Virus record (IMG/VR): IMGVR_UViG_3300032046_000089
Span: 1-37,941 of that record
Reading direction: 5' to 3' (one strand)
DNA from: a virus
Length of the DNA: 37,941 nucleotides
The notes under the pieces are model-generated. The model searched no databases. It was not told where the DNA came from and saw nothing but the letters and a program-made list of their open reading frames with translations. A program made the position numbers and the translations under genes. The first letter of the stretch is position 1. Every line of letters starts with the position of its first letter. Shown here in pieces: positions 3,222-34,941 of the stretch.

Positions 3222-3692
3222 TCACAATATCGGAGCGACGAGTGGAGGAGGCCCGATAAACGCGGCTGTTCCTCCGAGGTTGTTCGCATGGATCACAGTC
3301 GAGATTGCCTCCATGGCCGGATCCGTTCCTAGCTTTCCCGTGGTACTTGCAAGAAAGACGGGAAGCAACGCCGTACTGATTCCCGCTAGAGCGGGAGGCG
3401 GTATTAGAGAGATCGCTGGCGGAAAGGCGACAGCAGGAATCAACGCTCCCCAGAAGGCGACGATTCCCGCTTGAATGGCAACGGCTCCGGTCAGCGACAA
3501 GCCAATCATGGCGCCCTTCATCGCGGCCTCGCACGGAACCAAGGCCGCAGGAGTGACTGGGATTCCGTTGCAAGCCGCATCGAGGAAGTAGGTCTTGAAG
3601 GCCGCAGACCATCCAGCTATGGCGTCGCCTTCATCCTCGTACAAATTGAGAGCGACAAGCTCGGCCTTCAACGTGGCGCTCGACATCGCCAT
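3222..3692 (-). CDS. Hydrophobic protein of the baseplate operon, unknown
   Basis: This 156-aa protein starts at the ATG at 3692, overlapping the spike gene's stop as TAATG, with GGAG eight bases upstream. A second ATG six bases on is also possible. Residues 1-60 are soluble and mixed. From about residue 65 to 125 there is an almost unbroken run of small hydrophobic residues with Gly, Ala and Pro (GAVAIQAGIVAFWGALIP, then a Pro-rich PPAISLIPPPALAG). This could form one or two membrane-spanning helices. It ends with a Gly/Pro-rich tail (FIGPPPLVAPIL). It lies between spike and gp25-like genes, so it may be delivered with the tail tip or assist baseplate assembly. I do not recognise the family. 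Confidence 0.75.
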   Translation of the reverse strand: MAMSSATLKAELVALNLYEDEGDAIAGWSAAFKTYFLDAACNGIPVTPAALVPCEAAMKGAMIGLSLTGAVAIQAGIVAFWGALIPAVAFPPAISLIPPPALAGISTALLPVFLASTTGKLGTDPAMEAISTVIHANNLGGTAAFIGPPPLVAPIL

Positions 3693-4411
3693 TACTTCAG
3701 CTCCACTACCGTTGAAAGAACAGTCGGCGGAATGGGTTGAATCGGAGCACCCGTCGGCCCTGTACCAGAAGGATGAGTGTGGGCCTCGGCCCAGCTTTTC
3801 CAATCGTCGCCTCGGATGGCCGGCGTGTCAGCGCCATTCCCTAGCTTGATCGAATCGGCTTGAATATCGGCGACACCACACACGATCGTCACGGTGTCCG
3901 AATCGGCATCCATGACAATCGTGGTTCCGGCCTTGTTCGTGATTGCAATCGAACCACTCTCGTCGAGCAGAATCTCGCTCGTGTTGCTTCCGTCCTTCCA
4001 GCCTAGCCGAACCATGGATTTTCCAGGCGTGTCATCAAACATCAAAACATGCCCGCTCGGCGTAATGAATCCCCGACGCTTCCCGTAGTTCGTTTTCACT
4101 TCATCCGGAATCGGCCTCGGCGATTTGGTATTGGCACTATCCCAGGCTCGCTTTCCGCGCCACTTCATGACTGGATTGAAAATCGCAGCTTCATAGGGAA
4201 CGTCATCTTGATTCGAAGACATCAAGATTTCGATCTCCACGATTTCGTCGACATCCGGAATGTAGAACCAACCCCAATCGAGGAGTGGTTCAACCCAATC
4301 CGCGAGAGGTTCCTGGCTTCCGGTGAAATCCGGACAAACGACTTGGATGCGACCTAGCTTTTTCTCGTCTTGATTGTCCACGACTCGTGCGAGATAGCTT
4401 ATGTAGCTCAT
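3692..4411 (-). CDS. Baseplate central spike (gpV / gp5 OB-fold-like)
   Basis: This 239-aa protein fits the central spike that caps the tail tube and pierces the outer envelope. The N-terminus (VVDNQDEKKLGRIQVVCP, about residues 10-27) is the strand pattern of the gp5/gpV/VgrG OB-fold. The middle (SGHVLMFDDTPG, then SEILLDESGSIAI) is the usual entry to the beta-helical needle. The C-terminus carries a HTHPSGTGPTG segment; HxH at the tip of P2-like spikes binds an iron ion. The gene follows the hub gene with an ATGA overlap, so translation is probably coupled. At this length it has no lysozyme domain. Confidence 0.87.
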   Translation of the reverse strand: MSYISYLARVVDNQDEKKLGRIQVVCPDFTGSQEPLADWVEPLLDWGWFYIPDVDEIVEIEILMSSNQDDVPYEAAIFNPVMKWRGKRAWDSANTKSPRPIPDEVKTNYGKRRGFITPSGHVLMFDDTPGKSMVRLGWKDGSNTSEILLDESGSIAITNKAGTTIVMDADSDTVTIVCGVADIQADSIKLGNGADTPAIRGDDWKSWAEAHTHPSGTGPTGAPIQPIPPTVLSTVVELK

Positions 4412-5571
4412 TTGGCAACCACCTTTCTCGCATCGATCTCACATTGATAACCAGAGCCCGAGTCGAAGATGTGACGAACCTTGTTCATCACCCAGTCGCC
4501 ATCGAACAATGTTCCGAGTCCGGTGATTCCATGTGTCTGTCTTGCCCTCAGATCCGGAATACCAACGCACGCTCCCGAGCCAGAAACGAAGTTGCCGCGA
4601 TTCTTTTCAAACCACTGTTTAGCCCACCATTCGATTGTAGAGTCCTGCTTGAACCTGGTTCCGTCGTAGACTCGGAGGCTATATTCTCCGATGTAGAGAT
4701 TCACCTCTTGCGCCGTTCCCAATTCGCCTTCGACCTTTTCTTCAGGATTGGTTGGGACAGTTGACCAATCGTGCTTCTTCTCCTCGATGAAATTTTTCTC
4801 GACCAATCTTCCAGAAGGCGACAGAAATTGAACCGAGATTTTCGTGAAGTGATCTTTGAATAGAAGCTCCGGCTCGAAATTGTAGAGCGTTCCCGATCCA
4901 CCTTGCGCATAGCGAAGGCTGTATTTCTTCTCCTGTTGAATGTTATCAGGATGCTTGAAGTGAAGAGTCCATTTTCCCTGAGCGTCGCCGTCAACCCAGA
5001 AGTAGTAGCCAGACAAGTTGGCCATGCCCTTGACGAAATCGTAGTCTGACATTTCTTTCGGTTGATAGACGTTCGATCGAGGTTCTTTGGTCTCATCCAC
5101 GTCATCGACGAATTGATATTTCGCCGCGACCTTCCGAACTATTTCCGAGAAGCTTTCCTTCTTCCAATTTGTCTTCTTCGCTTCCTTGCTCTTACCGCCT
5201 TTCGGCTTCGTTCCCGTAGGCGGATCTGGATCGGGCCGAACGTCTTGCATGTAGTGCGATTTTGAATATGCGGTCACTTCGATCGAAGGCATCCCGTCTA
5301 GCGGGAAAGGACATCGAACATTGGCGATGACGGCTCTTCCGATATGCTGTAAATTTGCGCCATAGCCGATCCACAAAGAAAGCTCGTTCCCAGGAAGGAA
5401 CAGCTTCAACTCCGATATCAAGAAGTCTGGATTGAGAACGGCGACCTTCATCATATCGACAATGCCTTCAATAGATTCGTATTCAACTCGCTCGATGAAT
5501 TGCGAGACGTTCGCCTGGATCTTGTGACCCTGCACTTCCAAGCTGAACCGGGGAGCGAGAACGTCATCCAT
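4408..5571 (-). CDS. Baseplate hub protein, late-control gpD-like
   Basis: This 387-aa protein resembles the gpD/gp27/VgrG-N hub family that forms the trimeric bridge between tail tube and spike. Features are an N-terminal strand-rich region with FSLEVQGHKIQ, a central SFSEIVRKVAAKYQF segment, and MSDYDFVKGMANLSGYYFW (about 193-211). The last is the typical gpD 'D-x-x-F-x-x-x-L-A-x-x-x-G-Y-x-F' pattern. A Lys/Pro-rich loop (PPTGTKPKGGKSKEAKKTN) at about 117-135 is probably disordered. The ATG at 5571 lies two bases past the stop of the preceding gene, and its ribosome site (GAGAGG) is inside that gene. It is followed directly by the spike gene, the standard D-V pairing. Confidence 0.88.
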   Translation of the reverse strand: MDDVLAPRFSLEVQGHKIQANVSQFIERVEYESIEGIVDMMKVAVLNPDFLISELKLFLPGNELSLWIGYGANLQHIGRAVIANVRCPFPLDGMPSIEVTAYSKSHYMQDVRPDPDPPTGTKPKGGKSKEAKKTNWKKESFSEIVRKVAAKYQFVDDVDETKEPRSNVYQPKEMSDYDFVKGMANLSGYYFWVDGDAQGKWTLHFKHPDNIQQEKKYSLRYAQGGSGTLYNFEPELLFKDHFTKISVQFLSPSGRLVEKNFIEEKKHDWSTVPTNPEEKVEGELGTAQEVNLYIGEYSLRVYDGTRFKQDSTIEWWAKQWFEKNRGNFVSGSGACVGIPDLRARQTHGITGLGTLFDGDWVMNKVRHIFDSGSGYQCEIDARKVVAK

Positions 5572-5572
5572 G

Positions 5573-6352
5573 TTACTCGTCCTCTCGAACGTAGAAGCTT
5601 GATTTGGTCACGTTGTGATCTTCCACAACTTGCTCACGCCTTCTTTTCGTATCAGTATCCTTTCGAGTGAACGCTCGATACAGGGGAAGCGACTTCGGCT
5701 CGACAACTTCTTTTGCAATTGCATCGGATGAAGGCAATTTGATAATGCTTCCAATTTGAACGAATGGCGTGGAAGGATGCCTCTTCCGGATAACGTCACC
5801 CATCAACGGACTTCCGTACTCGCGCTGGGTCAGCATTTCGTAATAGTCGGCTTGGCGCGAGCGATGATAGCGCGTCTCAGGCGGCTCGGAGACATCCAAC
5901 GTCCAAGGCTCATATCTATGAAGCTCGATGCTAAACGACACATCGCGGAGAGCGCCGGAACGAGTCGGTGGTTGATATTCATTCGAGATCTGGCGAATCG
6001 TGCAGTATTGAAAGCCAAGATGAGAATCGGCCACCCAAAACATGATGAGGGGTGGCCTCTTCAACTTCTCGTCGCGCCTGACCCACAACTTTAGAAGAGC
6101 GAGATTCGCGTAGGGATCGTTCTCTTTGCCTTCCGATTCGGATGTTAGAAAAAAGCGACCTCGAAAGGAAACCGTGTCAATGTTGCCATGAACAAATTGA
6201 GAGATCGGGCTTTGAGCATTCAACGAGAAGCGATCTGCATAGGTTGCGCCGACAGTCTCGGTCAACGACTCCGCCACGAATTGGCCCTGTAACTCTTCGC
6301 CAGTGTCGCGATTCGTTAGGAACCAAACTCTTTCTCCACCAAACAAGCCCAT
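5573..6352 (-). CDS. LysM-like baseplate / tube-initiator protein (XkdP or gp53-like)
   Basis: This 259-aa protein lies between the tape measure and the hub, where phages and contractile injection systems encode a LysM-containing tube-initiation or hub-adaptor protein. The N-terminal 150 residues look like a tube-type beta sandwich (FVAESLTETVGATYADRF, later DVSFSIELHRYEP). Around 180-215, YGSPLMGDVIRKRHPSTPF followed by GSIIKLP matches the LysM-like pattern of such adaptors. The C-terminus is charged and ends in VREDE. The ATG at 6352 has a GGAG site inside TAGGAGTCGG, which is part of a conserved leader element (6355-6380). The fold is inferred from pattern and order. Confidence 0.7.
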   Translation of the reverse strand: MGLFGGERVWFLTNRDTGEELQGQFVAESLTETVGATYADRFSLNAQSPISQFVHGNIDTVSFRGRFFLTSESEGKENDPYANLALLKLWVRRDEKLKRPPLIMFWVADSHLGFQYCTIRQISNEYQPPTRSGALRDVSFSIELHRYEPWTLDVSEPPETRYHRSRQADYYEMLTQREYGSPLMGDVIRKRHPSTPFVQIGSIIKLPSSDAIAKEVVEPKSLPLYRAFTRKDTDTKRRREQVVEDHNVTKSSFYVREDE

Positions 6353-6354
6353 GG

Positions 6355-6380
6355 CCGACTCCTATTTACACCGTAAACAA
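6355..6380 (-). promoter_or_regulatory. Conserved palindromic leader element, copy 2
   Basis: Between the tape-measure stop and the start of the LysM-like gene, the minus strand reads TTGTTTACGGTGTAAATAG and then GAGTCGG. TTTAC and GTAAA form a palindrome around three bases. The same block, with two substitutions and a two-base insertion, precedes the scaffold gene at 25434-25460. The match covers the palindrome and its downstream flank. It overlaps the ribosome site here. It could be an operator, a promoter element or an RNA structure; the sequence does not decide. Confidence 0.5.
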
Positions 6381-8972
6381 TTATGGAAGCGTGGCTATTT
6401 TCTTGAGTCCCGGAGTTATCCCGAACTCTCTCGAAGCCGTTTTCTGATACGCTTCCTTCTTCGCTCCGGAACGCTCCATGATTTCGGTCTGAGTACGGCT
6501 GATTGCCGTCGCCACTTGCTTGCCGTCGATACAAAGCGTGTTCTTGATCGAAGTCTCTTGCTTTCCGAGATTCACATCGACGTTTACTTTGTCACTCGGC
6601 TTCTTGCCGGCGAGCTTCGTCTCGGTCGCCGTTTTAGCGGCGCTGATAGTCTCGTCCCGCTTTGCTTTCTCTTCCATGAATTGGAGATTTCTGGATCGAG
6701 TATCCTTCTCGATTCCGCTCTTGATAAAGTCCAACTTGCGTTTTTCTCTTTCATATTCATCTTGGGACATCGCATCTCGATCGCTTTCCAGAGCACGCTC
6801 TTGAACACCTAACATATATTCTTGGATGCTGGTTCGAGCTTTTGTGACGAACTCACCCAACAGCTCGAACATGATTCCCAGACCTTCAATGATTGTAGAA
6901 ATGACGGTTCCGATAAATTCGCCGACAGTGCCCCAAACGCTTACCATGTCGCCGCCGGCTTTCGAATTACTTTCCCAGAGCCAGCCGAATAAGGTGTTGA
7001 ACATCTTGCCGACTGCTGATACCAATTTGCTCACGCCATCCCAGATCGATCCGACTTTGGACATAAACCCTTCGACGAATGCGCCGAAGGTGTTTTTCAA
7101 ACCTTCCCAGATTCCGCCAAGCATACCGGAGAACGAATCAAACTTCTTCCCAGTCGATTCGAGATAGGACCAGAGCAATCCGAAGACCAGGAAGATAGGG
7201 CCGCCCCAACCTTTCAAGAACGTAAAGACGGCTTTGAGAGATCCGAGCAGGGCGCCTTTGACGGCTGTACCGACACCCAAGACAGCGGCTTTCAACCCTC
7301 CGACGACTCCCGTGAAAGTGATCGTCGTCCCTCCCAATGTTACGAGCGAGCTATACATCGCACCAATTGCGGGAAGCACTGTCTTTGTAACTAACGAGGC
7401 GAATCCGGCTGCCAGATTCCACATTCCCGTGAAAGCCGGAAAGACTGTTTTCGAGATCGCCCATCCAACAGCAACCACGGCCGCAGTAACAGGAACCAAC
7501 GCACCTCCAATCAACGCCACTTTCGTAACCAGATTGGCTATGGCCGTTGTAGAATCGACCCCGATCGACTTGAAAAAACTGAGACCGAAAGACTTGGCCG
7601 ATTCAACCACTCTGTCGAAAGACGCCTTCAGCTCCTCGAGCGCCTCGTATATTCCGATGGCTATCTTCTGGACGGTTGTTAGACTTCCGCCGGCTTGTTC
7701 CGATTGTTTGACGAATTCTTCGAGACCGATCTCTCGAATTGATATCAACGAGAGGGTCACTCCGGAGACCCATTTGAACATCGATTTGAAGTTTGCAGCG
7801 GTGGAAGTCAGGAACGGCTCCATGACCTCTCCGGAGAGGGTCTTGACGCTGGTCCAGAATTTCTTCATCTGGATGAGGGCGTTGTTACCACGAACCTCGG
7901 CCATCTTACCAGCCGCTCCGGCCGAGCCGTAAAGCGCGTTTTCAAAATCCTTCATCCCCTTCTCGCCGGCCGCTGCCAACATTCCGAATGCTTGCTCGCC
8001 GCGCCTTCCAAAAATAGTCGTGGAGACTTCGGCCCTCTTCGAGGCGTTGGAAATGCCAGAAATCTTTTTGTTCAATTGAGGAATGATCGTCGATAGGGGA
8101 AGCAATTTCCCTTGGGTGTCGGTCAACGCGATGCCCCACGAAGCGAGGATTTCTTGGCTGGCCGTCGTCGGCTTGGTCAACGCTCGGAACATGGTAGCCA
8201 GACCCATGCCTGCGCGGCTCCCCTTTATCCCAGCTTGCGACAATATCCCGAGGGAGGCATTCACTTGTTCGAATGGAATTCCGAGGCTCCTGGCAATCGG
8301 AGAGACCATTCTGAGCGAAGCGCCCAATTGATTGATCTCGATTCCCGACTTGGCGGAAGTCTTGGCCATGACATCGACGATTCGATTAGATTCCTCAAAC
8401 GACATTCCCATACCTTTGACAGTCTGGCCAAGGAACATCGCCGCTTTCGCTTCTTCCATTCCGGTTGCTCGAGCTAGAGACATCGCAGATGCAGCGGAGG
8501 TCATCGTCTGATCAATCGTCGCTCCAGACGCTCTCAGATTTTTCATCATTCCGAGAGCAGCAACGGGAGACTTCCCAAACTCGGCGCCTAGCTTCTTCGC
8601 GGCGAAGCTCATTCGATTCAGATCTTCGGCCGTTGCATCTGTCGAAGCCGCCAATTCGGCCTGCTTCTGCTCGAATTCCATCGACTCATCGGCGCCCTTC
8701 TTCATTAGAATAGTAACGCCGGAAAATAGAGCCAGGGTTCTTCCGAGAGCTTTCCCGAGGTCCTTGACGCCAGAAGCCATTTGTCCGATCGATTTGACGC
8801 CCTCTTGTCCCAATACCTTCAACTTCATTTGAAGGGTTTCAACGGGAGGGTCAATCTTCTTAGCCGACTCGCCCATCTGCCTGAACCGCTCAGAGACAGC
8901 GGTCATAGCCACAACGGCTTGCTCGACCTCGAAGATAAGCTCTCCGCCTAAGCCGATTTTTTCGAAGGACAC
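6381..8972 (-). CDS. Tail tape measure protein
   Basis: This 863-aa protein sets tail length and is probably ejected with the DNA. The N-terminal 350 residues match the TP901-type tape-measure core: Ala/Gly/Met-rich helices such as MSFAAKKLGAEFGKSPVAA, ATGMEEAKAAMFLGQTVKGMG and LGIPFEQVNASLGILSQAGIKG. Around residues 490-610 are several hydrophobic segments (ALVPVTAAVVAVGWAI and following), usual for tape measures. The C-terminal 150 residues are charged and predicted coiled coil. I start it at the GTG at 8972, which has GAGG seven bases upstream; the frame extends to a TTG at 8987 without a ribosome site. It follows the chaperone frameshift frame by four bases, the canonical gene order. Confidence 0.92.
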   Translation of the reverse strand: MSFEKIGLGGELIFEVEQAVVAMTAVSERFRQMGESAKKIDPPVETLQMKLKVLGQEGVKSIGQMASGVKDLGKALGRTLALFSGVTILMKKGADESMEFEQKQAELAASTDATAEDLNRMSFAAKKLGAEFGKSPVAALGMMKNLRASGATIDQTMTSAASAMSLARATGMEEAKAAMFLGQTVKGMGMSFEESNRIVDVMAKTSAKSGIEINQLGASLRMVSPIARSLGIPFEQVNASLGILSQAGIKGSRAGMGLATMFRALTKPTTASQEILASWGIALTDTQGKLLPLSTIIPQLNKKISGISNASKRAEVSTTIFGRRGEQAFGMLAAAGEKGMKDFENALYGSAGAAGKMAEVRGNNALIQMKKFWTSVKTLSGEVMEPFLTSTAANFKSMFKWVSGVTLSLISIREIGLEEFVKQSEQAGGSLTTVQKIAIGIYEALEELKASFDRVVESAKSFGLSFFKSIGVDSTTAIANLVTKVALIGGALVPVTAAVVAVGWAISKTVFPAFTGMWNLAAGFASLVTKTVLPAIGAMYSSLVTLGGTTITFTGVVGGLKAAVLGVGTAVKGALLGSLKAVFTFLKGWGGPIFLVFGLLWSYLESTGKKFDSFSGMLGGIWEGLKNTFGAFVEGFMSKVGSIWDGVSKLVSAVGKMFNTLFGWLWESNSKAGGDMVSVWGTVGEFIGTVISTIIEGLGIMFELLGEFVTKARTSIQEYMLGVQERALESDRDAMSQDEYEREKRKLDFIKSGIEKDTRSRNLQFMEEKAKRDETISAAKTATETKLAGKKPSDKVNVDVNLGKQETSIKNTLCIDGKQVATAISRTQTEIMERSGAKKEAYQKTASREFGITPGLKKIATLP

Positions 8973-25526: not shown

Positions 25527-28283
25527 TTATACTACAGCAGCGACCCCTCCGATGGAGAATCCCGTGATCTCCTTCTCCTTGATCTTTTTCCATAGCTTGT
25601 CATCCTTCACTCGTACCGTCATCAACCATGTTCCCTCGCTAACGGATTGGCCTCCTATTTCAAGATTGACCGGAGCAAGATAGGACTCAACTAATTCGAC
25701 GCCTATCTCACCAAAGACTTGGTGGAGCAATCCCATTTCAGTTTCCCTGTTGTACTTTGCCAAGAAGTTGTGCGCCGCTCTTTCGATTGCCTCACGATCA
25801 ATCGTATCGCCCTGTGCATCAACGGCATCGGGTTCGAGCACGATGCCCGTAACCAACTGCTTATCTTTATCCACCTTCGCAATCGGCATTCCAAAGCGGA
25901 TTGTTGAATTGAAGTCCATTTCTTTCTCCTCGTTCCTTTTGTGAACCGCTCTCTTATAAGAGGCTTCGAAATCCAAGATGACTTCTTTCTTCTCGATATC
26001 ATCGACCAAGTAGTCGCGCGTCATCTTCGCATTGGCCTGATTCGATATCGTCCAGTACTGATAGTGCTTCGGAACTTGAATTCGGATCGCTTCGGGCAAG
26101 GCGGAAACTCCGGCCGGAGGCATCCAGCCTTTGGCAACGGCTTCTTTGTCCAAAACGTAAGGTCTCAGTTCATCCGGTCTGGCAAACAGCCACCGCTCGC
26201 TCGACCCCTCCCCGTCATTGTCGCCTTCAGACGGAGGAAGAACTTCAGCGCTCATCTTCAATTGACGGAAGATGACGCGATAGTTCATGCTATCGCCTTG
26301 CACGAAGTATTCGTGGAACCATGGCTTCTGAGCGCCGAATTCTAAATCGCCACGATCCACGATCAAAAAGACTCCGGGGAAATTGCGCGTCCCTCCGACT
26401 GGGAGAGCTTCGCCTTCTTCCGGAACCTTTGTCACTCCTTCGACCTCGAGCCATTTCCAGGGAGCGGGATTCTTCTTCTCAGCCAAGATGGATGTTCTCG
26501 ATGGCTTCTCCACACCCATCTTGTCGCGTAAAGCCCACTCGCCCGTTCGCCAGTTGATCTTCGAGTAGTCGCCCATTTTCTCTTTGGCGGCTTGTCGGGC
26601 TTCTGCCAGATTTGTCACTGGCTCTTTGATAGCGTCCGCTATTGCTGTATTCAACGTCCAACCAAGCGCAAGATCTTCCGGCTTGAATCCGATCCGGAAA
26701 TCTGAATGAACACCTTTCCCGCGCCAGTGTTGATGGACAACGTAAGGATATTTTCGATCCTCGGGAGGAATTGTGAGATAGGGATCGTTTTTCTCGCTCA
26801 CCGCTTTGGTCACAGGCTGCTCGTTTTCGATCTCTGCCACAATCTCGGAATGCAAAACTGCTCCGCGCGATCCGGCTATTTTGTTCATCTTCAAGACGGC
26901 CTCTTCGGCCTCTTCCGAATCTCGAACGAACATGGAGGGTGATCGATTCAACCCCGGACTCGGAGACACCAACGATGCTTGGGGGAAGTCGAAGGTATCC
27001 AAAATCTGAGATCTCTCGACGAATGATTTTTCTCGAACGTCTATTTCAGTCCGAACCACATCGAGAACGCTCAGAACAAATCGATCCTCGTTCACTATCC
27101 CCTTCGTCACTTCCTCGCTTGAGAGATTCAAGATGTCGCTCCGCGCTTCGAGAACAGCGTCGAAAACAAAATCGGTAGCCGGATTCAAGGAAGCCAGTTG
27201 TTTGCATATCAGAGGGAAGCGTTCCGTCTCATCTTGCGCTTGATCATTCAATAATGTGACCACTCCGCATTTGCGAACCGCTTGCATCTTGAATCCGTCA
27301 TGCCTTTTTTGAACATGGGCCGGGAGATAAGGAGAAGACCGAAAGCCAGATTCCGCCTTCAGATCGGCGAGCGAAATCGATACTTGAACTTGTAAAGGAT
27401 AGTCGTTGTCCGGCCCTTCCTCGTCTTTCTTCATCGCGACTTCGTGAAGCCACTCGTGACCTTTCTTTTTATTGTCAGCGTGGAACTTCTCAATAGCCGC
27501 ATAATATTTCTTCAACGATCGAATCGCCATCCTGATTCGATCGTCGTATACGTGGCCACTGAGCTTTTCCTTTTCGAAAGCCTCATAAACCTCTTTGCCT
27601 GGTTTTTTTCCAGACCAGGGCGGAGCTACCTGTCGAAACCTCGGCATCGGATGTTCTTCCGTACCATGCTCGAATATGGTCCACTTTCCAAATTTTCCAA
27701 GGGCAGTTCTCCAGGTCGAAGAGTCGAACGAATCGAGAGCATCCATCCAGGGTAGAAATCTTTTCAATCGCTGACCAACACCCAAAGCGTGCATCTTGGT
27801 TGATGGATCATGCAGAAGTTTATCCAAGGCGTGGTCCATTCGTTTGATCTGCTTCTCCGCCCAACTATTTTCCATTCCTCCCCAGCAGAGCTTCTTATTC
27901 TTGTAGATCTTCTCGAGTCGATCATCCCAAGGAAACCACATATGATCAACAAACAATGGGTCGTGTCCCTTGTCGATCATGGCAGCATAATTCTTAAATG
28001 TGATCTCTCTTTTATGCGGATGATCCAGCGTCACATACTCGTCAATGAGTTTTTTATGACTGATTAGAAATTCCATGTAGCCTTCGAGTTGGCTGCTCCC
28101 CGGCTTTCCGACTTCCGTAAAACCTCCGGAATCGACCATGATGTCGGTTTTCTTTCCGGCCTTTACCAAAGCCTCCGGAAGGCCCCTTTTGCAGTAAGCG
28201 AAGGACATCAGAATCGAGGAGACTTTCTCCTCGAGCAGCATATCAACCCCTTCCTTGGTTCCGGCTGCAAAATACCACTTCAT
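25527..28283 (-). CDS. TGT/DpdA-like - ligase-like - LigD PE-like - XkdF protease fusion
   Basis: This 918-aa protein appears to hold four domains. Residues 1-265 look like a tRNA-guanine transglycosylase/DpdA barrel (DSGGF at 51-55, LGVG at 167-170, SFDSSTW at 185-191). Members of that family swap guanine for a 7-deazaguanine in tRNA or DNA. No CxC zinc motif is visible. Residues 295-490 resemble an ATP-dependent DNA ligase nucleotidyltransferase. They have KRHDGFKMQA (326-335) where KxDG is expected, then TERFPLI and DFVFDAVLEA (371-380). Residues 512-675 resemble the LigD phosphoesterase (VVHQHWRGKGVHSDFRI at 515-531). Residues 796-918 match XkdF-type serine prohead protease, with LHQVF and a C-terminal GFSIGGVA. 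The ATG at 28283 has AGGAA upstream. An internal ribosome site precedes residue 789. Domains 2 and 3 are pattern-based calls. Confidence 0.85.
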   Translation of the reverse strand: MKWYFAAGTKEGVDMLLEEKVSSILMSFAYCKRGLPEALVKAGKKTDIMVDSGGFTEVGKPGSSQLEGYMEFLISHKKLIDEYVTLDHPHKREITFKNYAAMIDKGHDPLFVDHMWFPWDDRLEKIYKNKKLCWGGMENSWAEKQIKRMDHALDKLLHDPSTKMHALGVGQRLKRFLPWMDALDSFDSSTWRTALGKFGKWTIFEHGTEEHPMPRFRQVAPPWSGKKPGKEVYEAFEKEKLSGHVYDDRIRMAIRSLKKYYAAIEKFHADNKKKGHEWLHEVAMKKDEEGPDNDYPLQVQVSISLADLKAESGFRSSPYLPAHVQKRHDGFKMQAVRKCGVVTLLNDQAQDETERFPLICKQLASLNPATDFVFDAVLEARSDILNLSSEEVTKGIVNEDRFVLSVLDVVRTEIDVREKSFVERSQILDTFDFPQASLVSPSPGLNRSPSMFVRDSEEAEEAVLKMNKIAGSRGAVLHSEIVAEIENEQPVTKAVSEKNDPYLTIPPEDRKYPYVVHQHWRGKGVHSDFRIGFKPEDLALGWTLNTAIADAIKEPVTNLAEARQAAKEKMGDYSKINWRTGEWALRDKMGVEKPSRTSILAEKKNPAPWKWLEVEGVTKVPEEGEALPVGGTRNFPGVFLIVDRGDLEFGAQKPWFHEYFVQGDSMNYRVIFRQLKMSAEVLPPSEGDNDGEGSSERWLFARPDELRPYVLDKEAVAKGWMPPAGVSALPEAIRIQVPKHYQYWTISNQANAKMTRDYLVDDIEKKEVILDFEASYKRAVHKRNEEKEMDFNSTIRFGMPIAKVDKDKQLVTGIVLEPDAVDAQGDTIDREAIERAAHNFLAKYNRETEMGLLHQVFGEIGVELVESYLAPVNLEIGGQSVSEGTWLMTVRVKDDKLWKKIKEKEITGFSIGGVAAVV
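25917..25931 (-). promoter_or_regulatory. Internal ribosome-binding site before XkdF protease domain
   Basis: Inside the fusion gene the minus strand reads GAGGAG, six bases, then ATG (25919-25917), at Met789, directly before the protease domain. Translation here would give a 130-aa product (25919 to 25527), the size of the protease domain alone. Glu/Lys codons (NEEKEM) could produce such a site by chance, so the call is tentative. Confidence 0.45.
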
Positions 28284-28340: not shown

Positions 28341-28694
28341 TTAACAAAAGCTGATTTTCATATCCTCAACTCTGGCGCCGTTTTCTCCGTCCTCCGAAAC
28401 CTCCACAGCAACGTAACGGTCCGTATAATTCAACCGAATCCAATTCATAAGATCTCGAGCCATCATTTCACACGATCTGCTTCCAAGATCGAATGGCCAT
28501 AGCTGAATATGCTGATCCAAGCGGTCTTTGAAACCCAAAAACTCGATGTCCCTATCATCGTGCTTTTGCTGGATGTAAACCTTCACATGGAACAAATGAC
28601 GATGAGGGTTCCTCAGATGAGCGTGCTTGAACATCGGAGCGTTCGCCCAACAATGTATTCCGGTGAACGTAGTCGTTATGATCGCAGTTACCAT
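28341..28694 (-). CDS. Diverged QueD-like T-fold protein
   Basis: This 117-aa protein looks like a second, diverged member of the 6-pyruvoyl-tetrahydropterin synthase/QueD T-fold family. His14 (TGIHCWANAP) and His31/His33 (RNPHRHLFHV) align with His14, His27 and His29 of the QueD at 29869-30234, so the zinc triad is kept. The catalytic Cys of QueD (LCRNLHGH) is replaced by Leu (HLRNPHRH). The C-terminal part, with SCEMMARDLMNW and VAVEVSEDG, aligns with SENLARFLAEDC and CAEVSVRETEG. I prefer the ATG at 28694, which has GAGG six bases upstream. A GTG at 28706 overlaps the FolE stop but has no ribosome site. It probably acts on a pterin or deazapurine intermediate; the substrate is unknown. Confidence 0.72.
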   Translation of the reverse strand: MVTAIITTTFTGIHCWANAPMFKHAHLRNPHRHLFHVKVYIQQKHDDRDIEFLGFKDRLDQHIQLWPFDLGSRSCEMMARDLMNWIRLNYTDRYVAVEVSEDGENGARVEDMKISFC

Positions 28695-28702
28695 TGGGTT
28701 CC

Positions 28703-29266
28703 TCACAATGAAAGCAGAGACATCAGTTCGGATCTGGCTTTGCTATCTTCCAAAAAAACGCCGATCAATTTATGTGTTCGCATCGTGGGGTTCGTTTGAC
28801 CAACGCCTCGCATCGACATATACATATGATGACCGTCGATATAGATAGCCACACCCTTCGGTTGAATCGCTTCTTGGATTCCGTTCGCAAGCTGATCCGT
28901 CAATCTCTCTTGGAGCTGCAATCTACGAGAGAAGACCTCCAACATACGAGCCAGTTTCGAGACGCCTATCACTCGATTCCGATCTGGAAGGTATGCGATC
29001 GTACAAGTGCCAAAGAAAGGAAGCATGTGGTGTTCACACATGCTCCAGTAATTCAACCCGCGCAGCATGACGATTTCATCACACCGATGCTCAAAGACCT
29101 TTGCGTAGTCTTCACAGGCTTGAGAGTAACCCGCGTAAATCTCAGACCACGAGCGAACGACTCGAGCGGGTGTCTCAAGCAAGCCTTCGCGATCGGGATC
29201 TTCGCCGATCAACTTCAACATCTGCCGAACCAAAGAACACGCTTCTTCGAATTTGTTTTCATCCAC
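28703..29266 (-). CDS. folE: GTP cyclohydrolase I (FolE)
   Basis: This 187-aa enzyme is GTP cyclohydrolase I. It makes 7,8-dihydroneopterin triphosphate from GTP, the first step of the queuosine/7-deazaguanine and folate routes. Family signatures are GEDPDREGLLETPARV (21-36), SMCEHHMLPF (75-84, zinc and active-site Cys77 and His80), VIGVSKLARML and QERLTDQLANGI. The third zinc ligand of the family (Cys181 in E. coli, in 'HxCMxxRG') is Tyr149 here (HHMYMSMRGV); the codon is TAT. I start it at the GTG at 29266, with AGGAG six bases upstream. It sits between QueE and the QueD-like gene. Activity without the Cys needs testing. Confidence 0.93.
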   Translation of the reverse strand: MDENKFEEACSLVRQMLKLIGEDPDREGLLETPARVVRSWSEIYAGYSQACEDYAKVFEHRCDEIVMLRGLNYWSMCEHHMLPFFGTCTIAYLPDRNRVIGVSKLARMLEVFSRRLQLQERLTDQLANGIQEAIQPKGVAIYIDGHHMYMSMRGVGQTNPTMRTHKLIGVFLEDSKARSELMSLLSL

Positions 29267-29275
29267 GACAATCTC

Positions 29276-29872
29276 CTACGCCAAATCGAATCGTTTGTGG
29301 CCTTGGAAACTGAGCCGCCAATTCCCCCTCATCGCCAGATTCAGACAGCGAACGGCGTTCTGCTTCAGATAGGGGCCATCAACCGGCTGAAGATATCGAT
29401 GAGAAAACAACCCAAAGTTCTCACAATCCTTGATGTCGAGGTCTGTCAATTCCGAGCAGACCGGAACTTTCAGCTCGTCGCCAGCGGTGGCTCGAACGTA
29501 AGAAAGGCCGGGAGGAAATTTCGGCGACACTGTGATCCAATCAATAAATTCGTCCAGCTCGAGTTCTCTCAATCCGTTCGTCTCAACGTGGACTTTGAAG
29601 CCGGAAGAAAGAAAATAGGACAAGTCACTGAGGTCGTGAATCGTCGGCTCTCCTCCAGTTAAGCAGACGGTATCGATCGTGGTCATCTCTGTTAACTGAA
29701 TCACTCGCCCATAGATTTCCTCGGCCGTCATCACTGCCTTTTCTCGATGATCGGTATCACACCAAGCGCAAGCCAGATTGCAACCGGCGAGACGAACGAA
29801 GCACATCGGCTTTCCTGCCCAATAGCCCTCGCCCTGCACGCTATTGAAAATTTCAACGATTGGATATTTCAT
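29276..29872 (-). CDS. queE: 7-carboxy-7-deazaguanine synthase (QueE)
   Basis: This 198-aa radical-SAM enzyme converts 6-carboxy-tetrahydropterin to 7-carboxy-7-deazaguanine. It has SVQGEG (11-16), the cluster motif CNLACAWC with Cys31, Cys35 and Cys38, GGEPT (73-77) for SAM binding, and VETNG in the next strand. Length is at the compact end of the family. The start ATG (29872) overlaps the QueD stop as ATGA; the stop TAG is the first part of the FolE ribosome site (TAGGAG). It is the key enzyme showing that the cassette makes a 7-deazaguanine, not a folate. Confidence 0.95.
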   Translation of the reverse strand: MKYPIVEIFNSVQGEGYWAGKPMCFVRLAGCNLACAWCDTDHREKAVMTAEEIYGRVIQLTEMTTIDTVCLTGGEPTIHDLSDLSYFLSSGFKVHVETNGLRELELDEFIDWITVSPKFPPGLSYVRATAGDELKVPVCSELTDLDIKDCENFGLFSHRYLQPVDGPYLKQNAVRCLNLAMRGNWRLSFQGHKRFDLA

Positions 29873-30234
29873 TCCGCATTCCTTGGCAGCACGTAAGTCA
29901 CCACCGATCCTTCGGTCTCTCGCACGCTGACTTCAGCACAATAAATATTTGGAAATCTCCTCATGCAATCTTCCGCAAGGAACCTAGCTAGGTTTTCGGA
30001 TGTCGGAGGAATGGAGGTGAATTCGGGGAAATCGTTCAAGCATTGATGATCATACTTGTTGGCAATTGACTTGATATCGCCAAAATCCGCGACCATTCCA
30101 TTTTCGTTCAAATCGACGGCCGATAGCTCGATGTGAACCTCGATGCTATGACCATGTAGATTCCGACACAGTCCCGGATGTTCGGGAAGGAAGTGTGCAA
30201 TCTCAATCACAATCCTCTTCACTAGCTTATACAT
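29869..30234 (-). CDS. queD: 6-carboxy-5,6,7,8-tetrahydropterin synthase (QueD)
   Basis: This 121-aa enzyme of the PTPS/QueD family converts dihydroneopterin triphosphate to 6-carboxytetrahydropterin. Zinc ligands His14, His27 and His29 lie in IEIAHFLPEHPG and RNLHGHS. The catalytic Cys23 is in LCRNLHGH. YDHQCLND and SENLARFLAE are the usual Asp-His and Glu motifs, and the C-terminus has VSVRETEGS. The ATG at 30234 has AGGAGG upstream. It is followed by QueE with a four-base overlap, so the pair is one translational unit. Length is normal. Confidence 0.95.
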   Translation of the reverse strand: MYKLVKRIVIEIAHFLPEHPGLCRNLHGHSIEVHIELSAVDLNENGMVADFGDIKSIANKYDHQCLNDFPEFTSIPPTSENLARFLAEDCMRRFPNIYCAEVSVRETEGSVVTYVLPRNAE

Positions 30235-30243
30235 TCTTGCCTC

Positions 30244-31143
30244 CTACGGTTCGAGATCTTTCTCCGAAACCTCAGAATAGCACTTCTCACGTTCATCCAT
30301 CTCGGATTCGTCCTCTGAATCCTCCTCGCTCTTCCTCACAGGTTTGCTGCTTTCGAACTTCGTCCAGTCCGGTTGAGAGACTCCGTTCTTTTCGAAGCTA
30401 GATGAGGCGTCGTCCAATCCGTCATCTGGCGGAGCCGGGTGTAGAATGCCTCGGCCGAAAAGGGTGTCCACAATCCTCGAGTGCAGATTGCTGATACCTT
30501 CCACCGTGAATCCGGGCTCGAGACCCTTGGCCGATCGCCGGTACATCAAATGTAAGGCCCAGTGAGCGCCCTTCAATTCCCGGGTGGTCATCTCTTCCGG
30601 GTTCGAGTCTGGAGCGAGCTTGTCGGCCTTCTGAAGCTGGCTGGGTGGCAGTCCAACGTCCTCGGCGATGTCCAGGAAGAAGGGTTTGGTATCGGAATCC
30701 ATTTTCGCAGGATGGAAGGTGATGACCTCCGGGCCTCGACGCTTCGCCTCTTCCAAGATCTTCCGGAGAAGCTGATGGAGAAAGCTCCCCGAGTACATGA
30801 AGGTCTCCGGGCTCTTTCTCCACGAAGCGAACCATGCGAGCACGATTCGGAAGTCGTCTCGCAGAACCTCGTCACTTACCTTTGATGGAACGTAGTTGGC
30901 TGCGTCCTTAATCTTCTCGATGTCGGATGTCTTCTCTTCCGGCTGAGAGAGTACCGTCAATGGAAGAACCCCAGATCCACCAGGAAGCGAGGCCGGATTC
31001 TTCAACCCACCTCCAGATAAAGAACCGGAGTCAATCGCTTGTTGAATGACCGCATGGGGTTGCTCCTCCTCGCCTGTCAGCGATTTTGTGACGCGAAGGT
31101 TGCGCTCTTCCGGAACAATCATCATTCTCTTTTTCTTACCCAT
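30244..31143 (-). CDS. Unknown protein before the 7-deazaguanine cassette
   Basis: This 299-aa protein starts at the ATG at 31143 (MGKKKRMMIVPEERNL) with AGGAG seven bases upstream. The frame extends to 31293, but only by reading back into the head morphogenesis gene. The first 80 residues are Ser/Gly/Pro-rich. Residues 90-230 are helical with VLAWFASWRKSPETFMYSG, LLRKILEEAKRRGPEVITF and THMYR-type basic segments (ALHLMYRRSAKGLEPGF). The last 50 residues are acidic (SEEDSEDESEMDEREK). No catalytic motif or family is recognised. It lies between head morphogenesis and QueD. Confidence 0.75.
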   Translation of the reverse strand: MGKKKRMMIVPEERNLRVTKSLTGEEEQPHAVIQQAIDSGSLSGGGLKNPASLPGGSGVLPLTVLSQPEEKTSDIEKIKDAANYVPSKVSDEVLRDDFRIVLAWFASWRKSPETFMYSGSFLHQLLRKILEEAKRRGPEVITFHPAKMDSDTKPFFLDIAEDVGLPPSQLQKADKLAPDSNPEEMTTRELKGAHWALHLMYRRSAKGLEPGFTVEGISNLHSRIVDTLFGRGILHPAPPDDGLDDASSSFEKNGVSQPDWTKFESSKPVRKSEEDSEDESEMDEREKCYSEVSEKDLEP

Positions 31144-31153
31144 GACTGCTCTC

Positions 31154-32155
31154 CTATTCTTCGGAATCTCGCAGAATCGAGGAAGAATCAATATCCACGT
31201 TGCATCGACAGTTGAAATGGAACGGAGGCAAGATGATTCCCTTGCTCGCCAATTCTTCCGAGTCCAACCCTTCCACATCGGACAAGCCGACAAACGGATG
31301 AGCCTCTTTCACTTCGTCTGGCGTATCGGCATCGAGTTCCTCATCCGCCATCTCGCCGGCCATTTCCACTGTAAATGATTTTCCGTTCATCTCGGAACAA
31401 ATCGGACAAGTGCGCTCATCGTCCGGATTGACAACCACGTAGTTGGTAACTTCCAATTCTTGAAGCGAACGAATCTGCCCTTGAGTTCTGGCTGTCGTAG
31501 AAGCCGAAGCAGCCAATCCTTCGAAGTAGCTTTCGACCGATCCGTTGTAGCCGCTCGGTGTTGAGATATACCCAAGCACGCGATCAATCTCCTCTCGGAG
31601 TTCTTTTCCGGCAAAAATCCGATCGCCTCCACCTTCTAGAATGACCGACTCGGCGACGTCGCGAATCTTCGAAGCGACTTCCTTCTGATACCCATCAACT
31701 TCGGAGATCCAGAAAAGCTGCTGGTTCTGAATCGCACGAACCGCCTGCCGATCGGCTTGATCGAAAACAGGCGAAAGAACGATTTTCTTCTTCGCCTTCT
31801 CAACCGGCTGTGCTCCCATTCGTTGAGCTTTCACCCAAAGAGACTCTCGACCAAGACGATAGATGCGCGCCATATCCTCGGTCAGTTGTCGGCGAACCTC
31901 AGAACTCCATTCGTCCATTATGTTCCGAACGGCTGAGGCAATTGCTTCGGGAGATTTTCCATCCCGAGCAAGACGGGCGGCTTTCTCCGCTGCCTCACGA
32001 CGGAGCACGTTCCATTTCGCGAGGAAGTATTGACGGAGCTTCGCCTCAATCCGCCTTGTCTGAGCAACAGCCGAGACGCTCGCCACTTTCGACAAAATCG
32101 AATCGAACGTGTGGAGGCGCAAAAACAGATCGTCGATTTTCTCGAGGGTGATCAC
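31154..32155 (-). CDS. Head morphogenesis protein (SPP1 gp7 / Mu gpF-like)
   Basis: This 333-aa protein is a minor head protein of the SPP1 gp7/Mu gpF group, thought to enter the prohead with the portal and to affect DNA packaging or ejection. The C-terminal signature is clear: NPDDERTCPICSEMNGKSF, then a spacer and LPPFHFNCRCNVDI, giving a Cys/His cluster. Upstream, ASTTARTQGQIRSLQEL is the usual helix. The N-terminal half is mostly helical. The start is the GTG at 32155, which overlaps the portal stop as GTGA. It ends 10 bases before the start of the 299-aa gene. Confidence 0.9.
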   Translation of the reverse strand: MITLEKIDDLFLRLHTFDSILSKVASVSAVAQTRRIEAKLRQYFLAKWNVLRREAAEKAARLARDGKSPEAIASAVRNIMDEWSSEVRRQLTEDMARIYRLGRESLWVKAQRMGAQPVEKAKKKIVLSPVFDQADRQAVRAIQNQQLFWISEVDGYQKEVASKIRDVAESVILEGGGDRIFAGKELREEIDRVLGYISTPSGYNGSVESYFEGLAASASTTARTQGQIRSLQELEVTNYVVVNPDDERTCPICSEMNGKSFTVEMAGEMADEELDADTPDEVKEAHPFVGLSDVEGLDSEELASKGIILPPFHFNCRCNVDIDSSSILRDSEE

Positions 32156-34941
32156 TCATGCTCCTCGTGCTTGGACAATTCGCTCCACTCTTGATCGAGC
32201 CTTTTCTGAATCGCAGCCAGACGATCGACAAAGTGTTGGTCTGAGCCCGTCAACATTTCGATCGTCTTCAGCGCCGTCACTTGTTGACCAACCTCTGTCG
32301 GCTGCGCTTGATTCTTGACCGCTTCGGCCATAGTCATCGAGAACGGCAGATCTTGCGGGAAGTCGGTCGGGAAATCTGGAAGCTCGATGCTCAACACATC
32401 CTCGAGAATCATTCGAGCAATTCGAGGCGTCATTCCGCCTGTCCGTTCCGCGCCAGCAAGGATCGAAACAAGCTCGCTGTTGTCTGTCGTGTTTGGCGAG
32501 TTGGAATGATACTTGTGGTACTTGATTCCCATCGCCGGAAAGATTATCCGGTTGAGCATGTCGTCGAAATCATCTCGCTCCGGAGCGAAGACTTGTTCGT
32601 CGGCTAGCCGACGAGAAGTGTCGGCGGTGTTGCCCTGCACTGTTACCTTTCCCTCGCGACGAGTGAAAAACAGATGGCCAGGAACTTCATAACAGTACAC
32701 TTTTCCAGAATACCATTCTTCCTCAATCTGCTCCGATGTCACCAAATGCTCAATCCGGTCGGGAGTAATCAATACGCGGTAGCAATCGGATTTGTTTCCT
32801 TTTCCCTTCGTCATAACCATATTTGCACGATGGCCGAGGTGAATCGCCATCATCTGAACCTGATCAGCAAGCTCTTGTGATGTAGTGGAGTAGCTCCACG
32901 ACGTTCTCCCTTCGCGGGAGTCAATCGTTCCATCCGTGTTCTGCAAATTTCGCAAAGACAGCGATAGCGTGTCGGAATCGTAGTGCAAGAATTCCATCGG
33001 CAAACGCTTCTCAGAAGCTTTGCGCCCACAATTGTCGCGGAGCATTTTCCACAGCACCTTATCAGCAAGAATGAAGTGAACCATTCCATTTTTATCGGTA
33101 GCCGGTTCGAATACTCTAAATCCCAATTCTTTCAATTGGGAATAGATTCGCTTGAAGACTTCGACCTTTCTCTCCTTCTTCGCCGATAACGAAATGTTAT
33201 ACATGCAGCGTCTTTTTCCTCCGACGAATTCGGGAGTCGTTGAGCCATCGGCAACAAAACAACTGACAAATTCAACCCAAAGCGAAAGGGGTATTTGAAC
33301 CTTTCCTCTTTTTCCAGCGTTCGGCCCATCATTCAAAATCATCTCAGGAATTTCCACGAACCGTTCCGCTTGAAGAAGCGGTTCTCGAGAAAAAGCGGAG
33401 GACATGAAAGAAAATCGATTGGCTTCAATATCCTTCGCCCGAACCTTTTCGAATCCCAAATTTGCTTTGATCCACATCCAATGTTCGGGGGTGACTAAGA
33501 CATCGGTGTTGCGGTTCTCAAAGTGCATCATGGGGCCATCGTAGTCGTACAGATGAATTCCGCCAATCGGCTCACGATACTGGAGCTGTAGACTGTCGGG
33601 ATTCAAAGTAGCGATCAGTTCTCCTTCCTCGATCTCCCAATAATACTTCCACCCTTGTTCGGTCAAGGTTTGGGTGTCTTCCGAATAACAGGCGCGGGTG
33701 TAGTCATCTGCCCTACCTACCAGAATCGGAGGAAGGCGGAAGGCCCGCCGAATCTTGTCTTGGTTGTTTTTCGAATATTGCTGGAACAGCTCATCCGAAT
33801 GTTGCTCTTTGGTCAACGGCTTGATGTCGATTTTGACCGGGTTGCTGTCTTCCCCTTCGAAAGCGGATTCGGCTTCGACGATCAAGAACTTGGAATAGTT
33901 GTCGCTGCCCTGGATCTGCGATTCCACGAATTCGCTGATACGGCTAATGGTCGCCGAGGTCAATTGACCATTCGATACGAGCATGGCCATCGAAGGAATG
34001 TTGTTGTTCTTAAATGTGATGTAATTGATCTCCTCTGAAGATCGATCGCCGAAGATTGCCAACAAGTTCCCGATGAATCTGGGGAGGCCGTAGGGAGAGC
34101 GAGAGCAATATAGCTTCATGTGAATGGCTTCGCTGGCCTTTGAGCTTTCCGACATCTTCGCAAGTTCGGCGTCCTTCACTTCACGCCCTGATGTATTGTC
34201 AAACGTGCGAGGATCGCCAAAATCTTTGAACCAACGAGTCTCGAATCCCGAAGAGACTTGCACGTTCTTGAAGCACGAAATCCGTGACTGACAATGACGG
34301 CGGAACCGCCTCCACGCTTTGATGGTTTTCACCTCAATCGAATTGTCTTGCTGCATTTCAAGGACAGGCATATCGACAAGAGTCGCCACAGCTTCAGCCA
34401 CGCCGAGGCGCATTTGATAGCACGGCAGATGGTTGAAGCCTTGAATATCACCGCTAGGCCCACGAATGACTTCGAACCAAGCGTTGCCACACGACTCGAG
34501 ATCTTTTCGAAGACGCTTTCGGAAAGAGCGGAACGAATCGGAAAGACAAGCGTAGGCGAAGAAATTTTCCAGACGAACCTTTTCTGTCTGCACGGTCTTA
34601 TCGAGTTCTTCGTCGGGCTTCTCCGAATCTTTTTTGATACGCGAAAGAAAACGATGACCAAAGCCGTCGATGTTCGCGACCATGGCGTCAATGCAAGGGC
34701 CAAGCTCGCTGCTCTGCTCATTCAACATCGTGAGCGTCAAGAGATCGAAAGGCGGAATGAGAACCTGCCCGTCGCTTATCAATTGCTCAAACGGATCTTC
34801 CGGAAGCTCTTTCGAAGCCATCGTTCTATCGGCGATCTGCTTCTTGACCGGAAAGACGAGTGCTCGCAAAGCCGACTTGTTGGATTTCTCGGCCCGCTCT
34901 GTCGAAGCACGGAGTTCGTCATTTGGCTTATGGTCACTCAT
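32152..34941 (-). CDS. Portal protein precursor with intein
   Basis: This 929-aa frame is a portal protein interrupted by an intein of 354 residues (Cys418-Asn771). The spliced portal would be 575 residues. The external parts match the PBSX/P2 Q-like portal group. Examples are EINYITFKNNNIPSMAMLV, SNYSKFLIVEA-type strands, then RAFRLPPILVGRADDYTRA before the intein. TADTSRRLADEQVFAPERDD follows it. The portal forms the 12-fold ring at the capsid vertex and threads DNA. The ATG at 34941 has a GAGG site nine bases upstream; the next gene overlaps as GTGA. The C-terminal tail (residues 870-929) is Gln/Glu-rich and helical. Confidence 0.93.
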   Translation of the reverse strand: MSDHKPNDELRASTERAEKSNKSALRALVFPVKKQIADRTMASKELPEDPFEQLISDGQVLIPPFDLLTLTMLNEQSSELGPCIDAMVANIDGFGHRFLSRIKKDSEKPDEELDKTVQTEKVRLENFFAYACLSDSFRSFRKRLRKDLESCGNAWFEVIRGPSGDIQGFNHLPCYQMRLGVAEAVATLVDMPVLEMQQDNSIEVKTIKAWRRFRRHCQSRISCFKNVQVSSGFETRWFKDFGDPRTFDNTSGREVKDAELAKMSESSKASEAIHMKLYCSRSPYGLPRFIGNLLAIFGDRSSEEINYITFKNNNIPSMAMLVSNGQLTSATISRISEFVESQIQGSDNYSKFLIVEAESAFEGEDSNPVKIDIKPLTKEQHSDELFQQYSKNNQDKIRRAFRLPPILVGRADDYTRACYSEDTQTLTEQGWKYYWEIEEGELIATLNPDSLQLQYREPIGGIHLYDYDGPMMHFENRNTDVLVTPEHWMWIKANLGFEKVRAKDIEANRFSFMSSAFSREPLLQAERFVEIPEMILNDGPNAGKRGKVQIPLSLWVEFVSCFVADGSTTPEFVGGKRRCMYNISLSAKKERKVEVFKRIYSQLKELGFRVFEPATDKNGMVHFILADKVLWKMLRDNCGRKASEKRLPMEFLHYDSDTLSLSLRNLQNTDGTIDSREGRTSWSYSTTSQELADQVQMMAIHLGHRANMVMTKGKGNKSDCYRVLITPDRIEHLVTSEQIEEEWYSGKVYCYEVPGHLFFTRREGKVTVQGNTADTSRRLADEQVFAPERDDFDDMLNRIIFPAMGIKYHKYHSNSPNTTDNSELVSILAGAERTGGMTPRIARMILEDVLSIELPDFPTDFPQDLPFSMTMAEAVKNQAQPTEVGQQVTALKTIEMLTGSDQHFVDRLAAIQKRLDQEWSELSKHEEHE
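32629..33690 (-). mobile_element. LAGLIDADG-type intein in portal gene
   Basis: The intein runs from Cys418 (TGT) to Asn771 (AAC); the next extein residue is Thr772. Block A is CYSEDTQTLTEQGWKYYW, with TPEH (484-487) as block B. A homing-endonuclease region has FVADGS (562-567) and a second motif ending NTDGTID (668-674). Block F/G is VYCYEVPGHLFF, ending VTVQGN. The penultimate residue is Gly, not the common His. Phage inteins ending GN are known, so splicing is still likely. The insertion splits a conserved portal segment, DDYTRA/TADTSR, the kind of site inteins use. Confidence 0.92.

Follow-up and report, generated by a model that had tools for sequence, protein, structure and literature searches.

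The 7-deazaguanine systems of Enterobacteria phage 9g, CAjan and Vibrio phage pVco-14 comprise FolE, QueD, QueE and DpdA (Hutinet 2019, PMC6884629), and phages without QueC, along with possible 7-carboxy-7-deazaguanine (CDG) bases, were already discussed in that 2019 paper. The virus described here, IMGVR_UViG_3300032046_000089, likewise has these four components, its DpdA belonging to the same HMM family, and its pathway, being QueC-less, represents a variation on a known system; unlike the three phages, it has no QueC or amidotransferase and has instead a paralog of QueD, its genes lie in a head operon, and its DpdA is fused to a protease. The record was analysed as a whole (the window, 37,941 bases) and is classed as linear, probably a fragment. 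Cellulophaga phage phiST, Acidovorax phage ACP17, Pseudomonas phage PA5oct and Xanthomonas phage X1, all with phrog_17812, also combine the paralog with FolE/QueE and have no QueC, but in such phages the cassette mostly neighbours polymerase, primase or other early genes. As for the protease, the XkdF-type prohead protease (PF14550) of PBSX-like phages has the same domain and the same position before scaffold and capsid, whereas here DpdA, pseudo-ligase and phosphoesterase domains stand in front of it. The latter two fold like an ATP-dependent DNA ligase (3rr5) and the LigD 3'-phosphoesterase (3p43), with the differences that the nucleophile lysine, intact in relatives, is lost and that both are part of a head polyprotein. 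No description of a polyprotein joining a modification enzyme to a head protease was found in the literature searched, many journals being outside its coverage.

The best explanation of the whole, predicted from the genes, is a myovirus with a 7-deazaguanine DNA-modification pathway built into its head operon, the base being synthesized without QueC and DpdA being fused to the head protease; we give this reading a probability of about 0.55. On the minus strand the order is terminase (terL), portal, MuF, a 299-aa module gene, queD, queE, folE, the QueD-like gene and the 918-aa protease gene, followed by scaffold and major capsid; contractile-tail genes, among them sheath, tape measure and baseplate, come next (Table 1). 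The queD-queE-folE-paralog genes form a tight operon with MuF upstream and protease/scaffold/capsid downstream. From terL to the fusion gene, intergenic spacing is -4 to +57 nt on a single strand throughout, with 4-nt overlaps at queD/queE and folE/paralog, and promoter-like and terminator-like sites in this stretch are not commoner than in shuffled sequence; as far as the DNA itself tells, the 7-deazaguanine cassette is part of the head operon.

Table 1. Genes and domains of the cassette and the fusion gene, with their positions in the window
Feature	Positions	Strand	Support
Whole 918-aa fusion gene: DpdA, pseudo-ligase, phosphoesterase, head protease	25527..28283	-	
XkdF-type prohead protease domain (PF14550, Peptidase_S78_2), aa 801-916	25536..25883	-	E=3.4e-32
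LigD-type 3'-phosphoesterase-like domain, about aa 490-780	25944..26816	-	
Degenerate ATP-dependent DNA ligase adenylation domain, about aa 296-479	26847..27398	-	
DpdA (DNA guanine transglycosylase) domain, aa 1-285	27429..28283	-	HMM and conserved residues
QueD-fold paralog, predicted CDG decarboxylase (DpdL-like)	28341..28706	-	phrog_17812 2.7e-21; weak phrog_2389 0.0088
FolE, GTP cyclohydrolase I	28703..29266	-	PF01227 3.9e-63
QueE, radical-SAM 7-carboxy-7-deazaguanine synthase	29276..29872	-	TIGR04508 5.9e-29; phrog_2076 3.5e-31
QueD, 6-carboxytetrahydropterin synthase	29869..30234	-	PF01242 1.1e-30; TIGR03367 5.6e-24
299-aa module gene	30244..31143	-	49% identity over 188 aa with L029 polyprotein residues 486-671

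Gene families were assigned by Pfam, NCBIfam and PHROGs profile searches, and these upheld the identities that the initial annotation had given for QueD, QueE, FolE and the QueD-like gene, all four of which lie where it placed them, on the minus strand; its broader proposal, that the head module contains a QueC-less cassette for 7-deazaguanine modification of DNA, is supported. The CDG-making enzyme set of phage 7-deazaguanine DNA modification (FolE, QueD and QueE) is present in the record, and the QueD retains its catalytic residues, namely C23, H14/H27/H29, D62-H63 and E106. PADLOC matches to pVip and BrxB were dismissed as weak cross-matches of the radical-SAM and FolE proteins.

Regarding the paralog, its predicted structure (pLDDT 89) aligned with E. 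coli QueD (4ntk) over 110 residues, with a Z of 13.1 and an rmsd of 2.4; the profile-profile comparison with QueD was weak (probability 31%, E 5e-4), so that it was the structure comparison that settled the fold. The same genome therefore holds a true QueD and a second protein of the QueD-family fold. In the alignment of the paralog family (57 sequences), H35, H37, E80 and E105 are invariant and H18 is at least 90% conserved; the zinc histidines and the conserved Glu of QueD are retained, and the catalytic Cys, which in QueD precedes the HxH zinc motif, is Leu at the aligned position. The missing Cys rules out a second true QueD. A QueD fold deprived of this residue suggests that a pterin-like ring, for instance CDG, is held by the zinc and undergoes a reaction other than that of 6-carboxytetrahydropterin synthase, and the paralog probably works in this way. 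In phage DNA, 2'-deoxy-7-deazaguanine has reportedly been found, and a CDG decarboxylase, DpdL, is said to have been predicted; we take DpdL to be QueD-like, which makes the paralog a candidate DpdL. It is likely that the paralog decarboxylates CDG, and its fit to this role makes plain 7-deazaguanine likelier than CDG or preQ0; the final DNA base is accordingly predicted, at slightly better than even odds, to be 7-deazaguanine (dDG).

The distribution of QueC argues in the same direction. The 37.9 kb record yielded no QueC, in agreement with the initial annotation; the record being a linear fragment, the gene could lie elsewhere in the genome. Among named phages with the paralog, 0/12 had a full-length QueC and 11/12 had QueE; QueC remnants in this set amounted to one partial match, over positions 133-201, and one below the cut-off. 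Conversely, the paralog was absent from all six named phages with QueC. IMG/VR gave nothing with a single-sequence query of the paralog, while an alignment query found hundreds (at least 599 pattern matches, on several hundred viral contigs). None of 45 IMG/VR contigs with the paralog had a full-length QueC, three having partial matches over its last 50-60 positions, and 36 of the 45 had a QueE match; on 39 contigs with QueC, the paralog never occurred and QueE was found on 38. Two relatives follow the same rule: L028 has the paralog and no QueC within 91.7 kb, and L029 has QueC and no paralog. Contigs are fragments, so that single absences are weak, but a pattern across about 100 records is not. 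By these co-occurrences the paralog appears to take the place of QueC in the pathway, and such strict exclusion argues that it performs a step on CDG. The paralog thus occurs with FolE/QueE and without QueC, as expected for DpdL; QueC or Gat-QueC, required in the preQ0/dG+ subtype, was found neither in the 37.9 kb record (a fragment) nor in the 91.7 kb of L028. The exclusion offers a clear-cut way of recognising, from genomes alone, viruses whose 7-deazaguanine base is QueC-independent, and the chemistry of the paralog lends itself to assay in vitro. In the flanks of 92 paralog loci, the HMM of standalone DpdAs gave a match in just two, so the majority of paralog viruses must rely on a DpdA of another type or on a distant one.

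From the lack of QueC, the initial annotation had concluded that the base could be CDG, or that a host or distant QueC completes the pathway; neither conclusion is supported as it stands, since the paralog fills the QueC position, an indication that CDG is processed further, most probably by decarboxylation to 7-deazaguanine. It is unlikely that DpdA inserts CDG itself, the paralog being a carrier, a second QueD or an accessory protein. CDG is the product of QueE, QueC is absent, and dCDG has reportedly been detected in phage DNA. Moreover, CDG has been proposed for the QueC-less phage Bipper (Hutinet 2019, PMC6884629); however, the paralog without the catalytic Cys is no second QueD, and its exclusion with QueC speaks for a step on CDG. 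Conversion of CDG to preQ0 by a host QueC, followed by insertion as dPreQ0, is very unlikely: QueC does occur in most of the named control genomes and the DpdA is of the type that accompanies QueC in other phages, but the paralog viruses consistently go without QueC, which indicates alternatives rather than host-complemented losses, and L029, which has no paralog, brings its own QueC. In this relative, positions 3670-5894 encode the full preQ0 set (QueC, QueD, QueE and FolE) and, between QueC and QueD, a Vut_1-family transporter (PF02592) that is possibly a preQ0 importer.

A further reading, also quite unlikely, is that the paralog makes or carries the precursor of a larger hypermodification, such as a glycosylated deazaguanine. 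An annotated glycosyltransferase adjoins the paralog in Phosso, and in L028 (region 4306-6648) a glycosyltransferase gene (PF00534) lies between the DpdA fusion and a longer protein of which the paralog is the C-terminal part; the start of this protein, LAPHLDDEVIGC, looks by eye like a PIG-L deacetylase and had no match in Pfam. The product may be modified further in both of these relatives, and sugar hypermodification of the base is possible at the L028 locus, but the cassette of the virus studied here has neither glycosyltransferase nor deacetylase, with FolE, paralog and fusion gene directly adjacent.

DpdA was missed or under-used in the earlier reading of the locus: the protease gene next door encodes it as an N-terminal domain. 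An HMM of 42 standalone DpdAs, all from beside QueC in other viruses and none from the fusion clade, matched residues 1-278 of the fusion (E=1.1e-30 for a search space of 1000). In a small alignment of this domain with known phage DpdAs, D51, D87, H114, H165 and D187 are invariant, and by analogy with the TGT/DpdA family they would form the transglycosylase active site. The tRNA TGT profile PF01702 did not match the domain, and since it misses the known phage DpdAs too, its absence is uninformative and the custom HMM was used instead. The AlphaFold model of the DpdA part was poor (pLDDT mostly <50), and searching PDB sequences with profiles of the DpdA and phosphoesterase parts brought no useful hit. 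For the two middle domains, Foldseek returned 3rr5 for the ligase part (E=1.2e-9) and 3p43 for the phosphoesterase part (TM-score 0.82 by target length); a protein of the ANMV-1 virus annotated as DNA ligase is 33% identical over the phosphoesterase part. The ligase domain is dead in this virus: the nucleophile Lys of motif I is Arg (QKRHDG for QKKYDG), and both motif IV and the OB fold have been lost. In most relatives that have this domain, all three features are intact. In the protease domain, H854 and S910 are at least 90% conserved and are the putative catalytic pair.

The polyprotein is modular in relatives. A search with an alignment of the phosphoesterase found 57 loci; among the unique loci scored, the partner in frame with the phosphoesterase was a D12 adenine methylase in 20, a C5 methylase in 3 and DpdA in 4 (L003, L004, L028 and L029), many others having their N-terminal part cut off or without assignment, and the present virus is a further DpdA case. 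Each locus was scored for DpdA, then for D12 and last for C5; no D12 or C5 match was present in the DpdA loci. QueE adjoins the DpdA fusion in this virus, L003, L028 and L029, that is, wherever the upstream region is available (L004 ends inside DpdA), and no QueE was found beside the polyprotein in the other unique related loci, within the available flanks. IMG/VR searches with single DpdA-domain sequences gave nothing new beyond L003/L004, and the only hit of a genome scan for a host or provirus was a contig of a Planctomycetota MAG that carries the phosphoesterase domain. The 299-aa module, which had no match in Pfam, lies within the polyprotein in L029, L012, L001, L002, L015 and L016, and in L028, as in this virus, it stands upstream of queD as a gene of its own. 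The queD-queE-folE-paralog cassette thus sits within what is one gene in other viruses, where it occupies the position of the methylase part. These relatives also bear on whether FolE, QueD and QueE, which are common to the tRNA pathway, serve host tRNA queuosine or folate metabolism rather than DNA: this is highly improbable, given that the adjoining DpdA is of the DNA type and occupies the place of DNA methylases in the polyprotein of relatives, and that QueC was not found in the record.

In the pathway favoured here, FolE, QueD and QueE would convert GTP into CDG, the paralog would strip its carboxyl group to give 7-deazaguanine, at the step where QueC-type phages make preQ0, and DpdA would exchange guanine in viral DNA for this base. 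As the N-terminal domain of a polyprotein that ends in the XkdF protease, DpdA would be synthesized along with the components of the procapsid; it might be located there and act on DNA during packaging, or be released by the protease. The initial annotation had explained the head-gene placement by modification just before packaging; the placement is real and such timing is possible, but timing alone explains the position of the cassette less well than DpdA being a domain of the head-protease polyprotein. Action of DpdA at or inside the procapsid is put forward tentatively, the simpler alternative being that the protease cuts DpdA free to work on replicating DNA in the cytoplasm. More generally, it is conceivable, if doubtful, that a family of viruses attaches interchangeable DpdA, D12 or C5 enzymes, with a ligase and a 3'-phosphoesterase, to the head protease, and so carries them into the procapsid to modify or mend the genome at packaging, or for co-injection; this virus would then be the version with a whole base-synthesis cassette inserted in the polyprotein locus. 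If this is so, capsid assembly and DNA modification would be physically coupled, and whether phage DNA is modified before packaging or in the course of it would be directly testable.

Inteins occur at two sites among these loci. The DpdA polyprotein of L028 (6617-11845) has a LAGLIDADG intein in ligase motif I, between QKKYDG and SNHQAH, and the portal gene of the window (32152-34941) has one of about 340 aa at 32629-33654, with a LAGLIDADG domain (PF14528, weak PF14890); the portals of relatives match the portal protein without the intein. The MuF-like genes of L002, L012 and L016 are much longer, 664 to 1289 aa, and may carry extra domains too. Finally, across L001-L070, a region of about 200 aa that looks by eye like a nucleotidyltransferase recurs in or next to many of the polyproteins.
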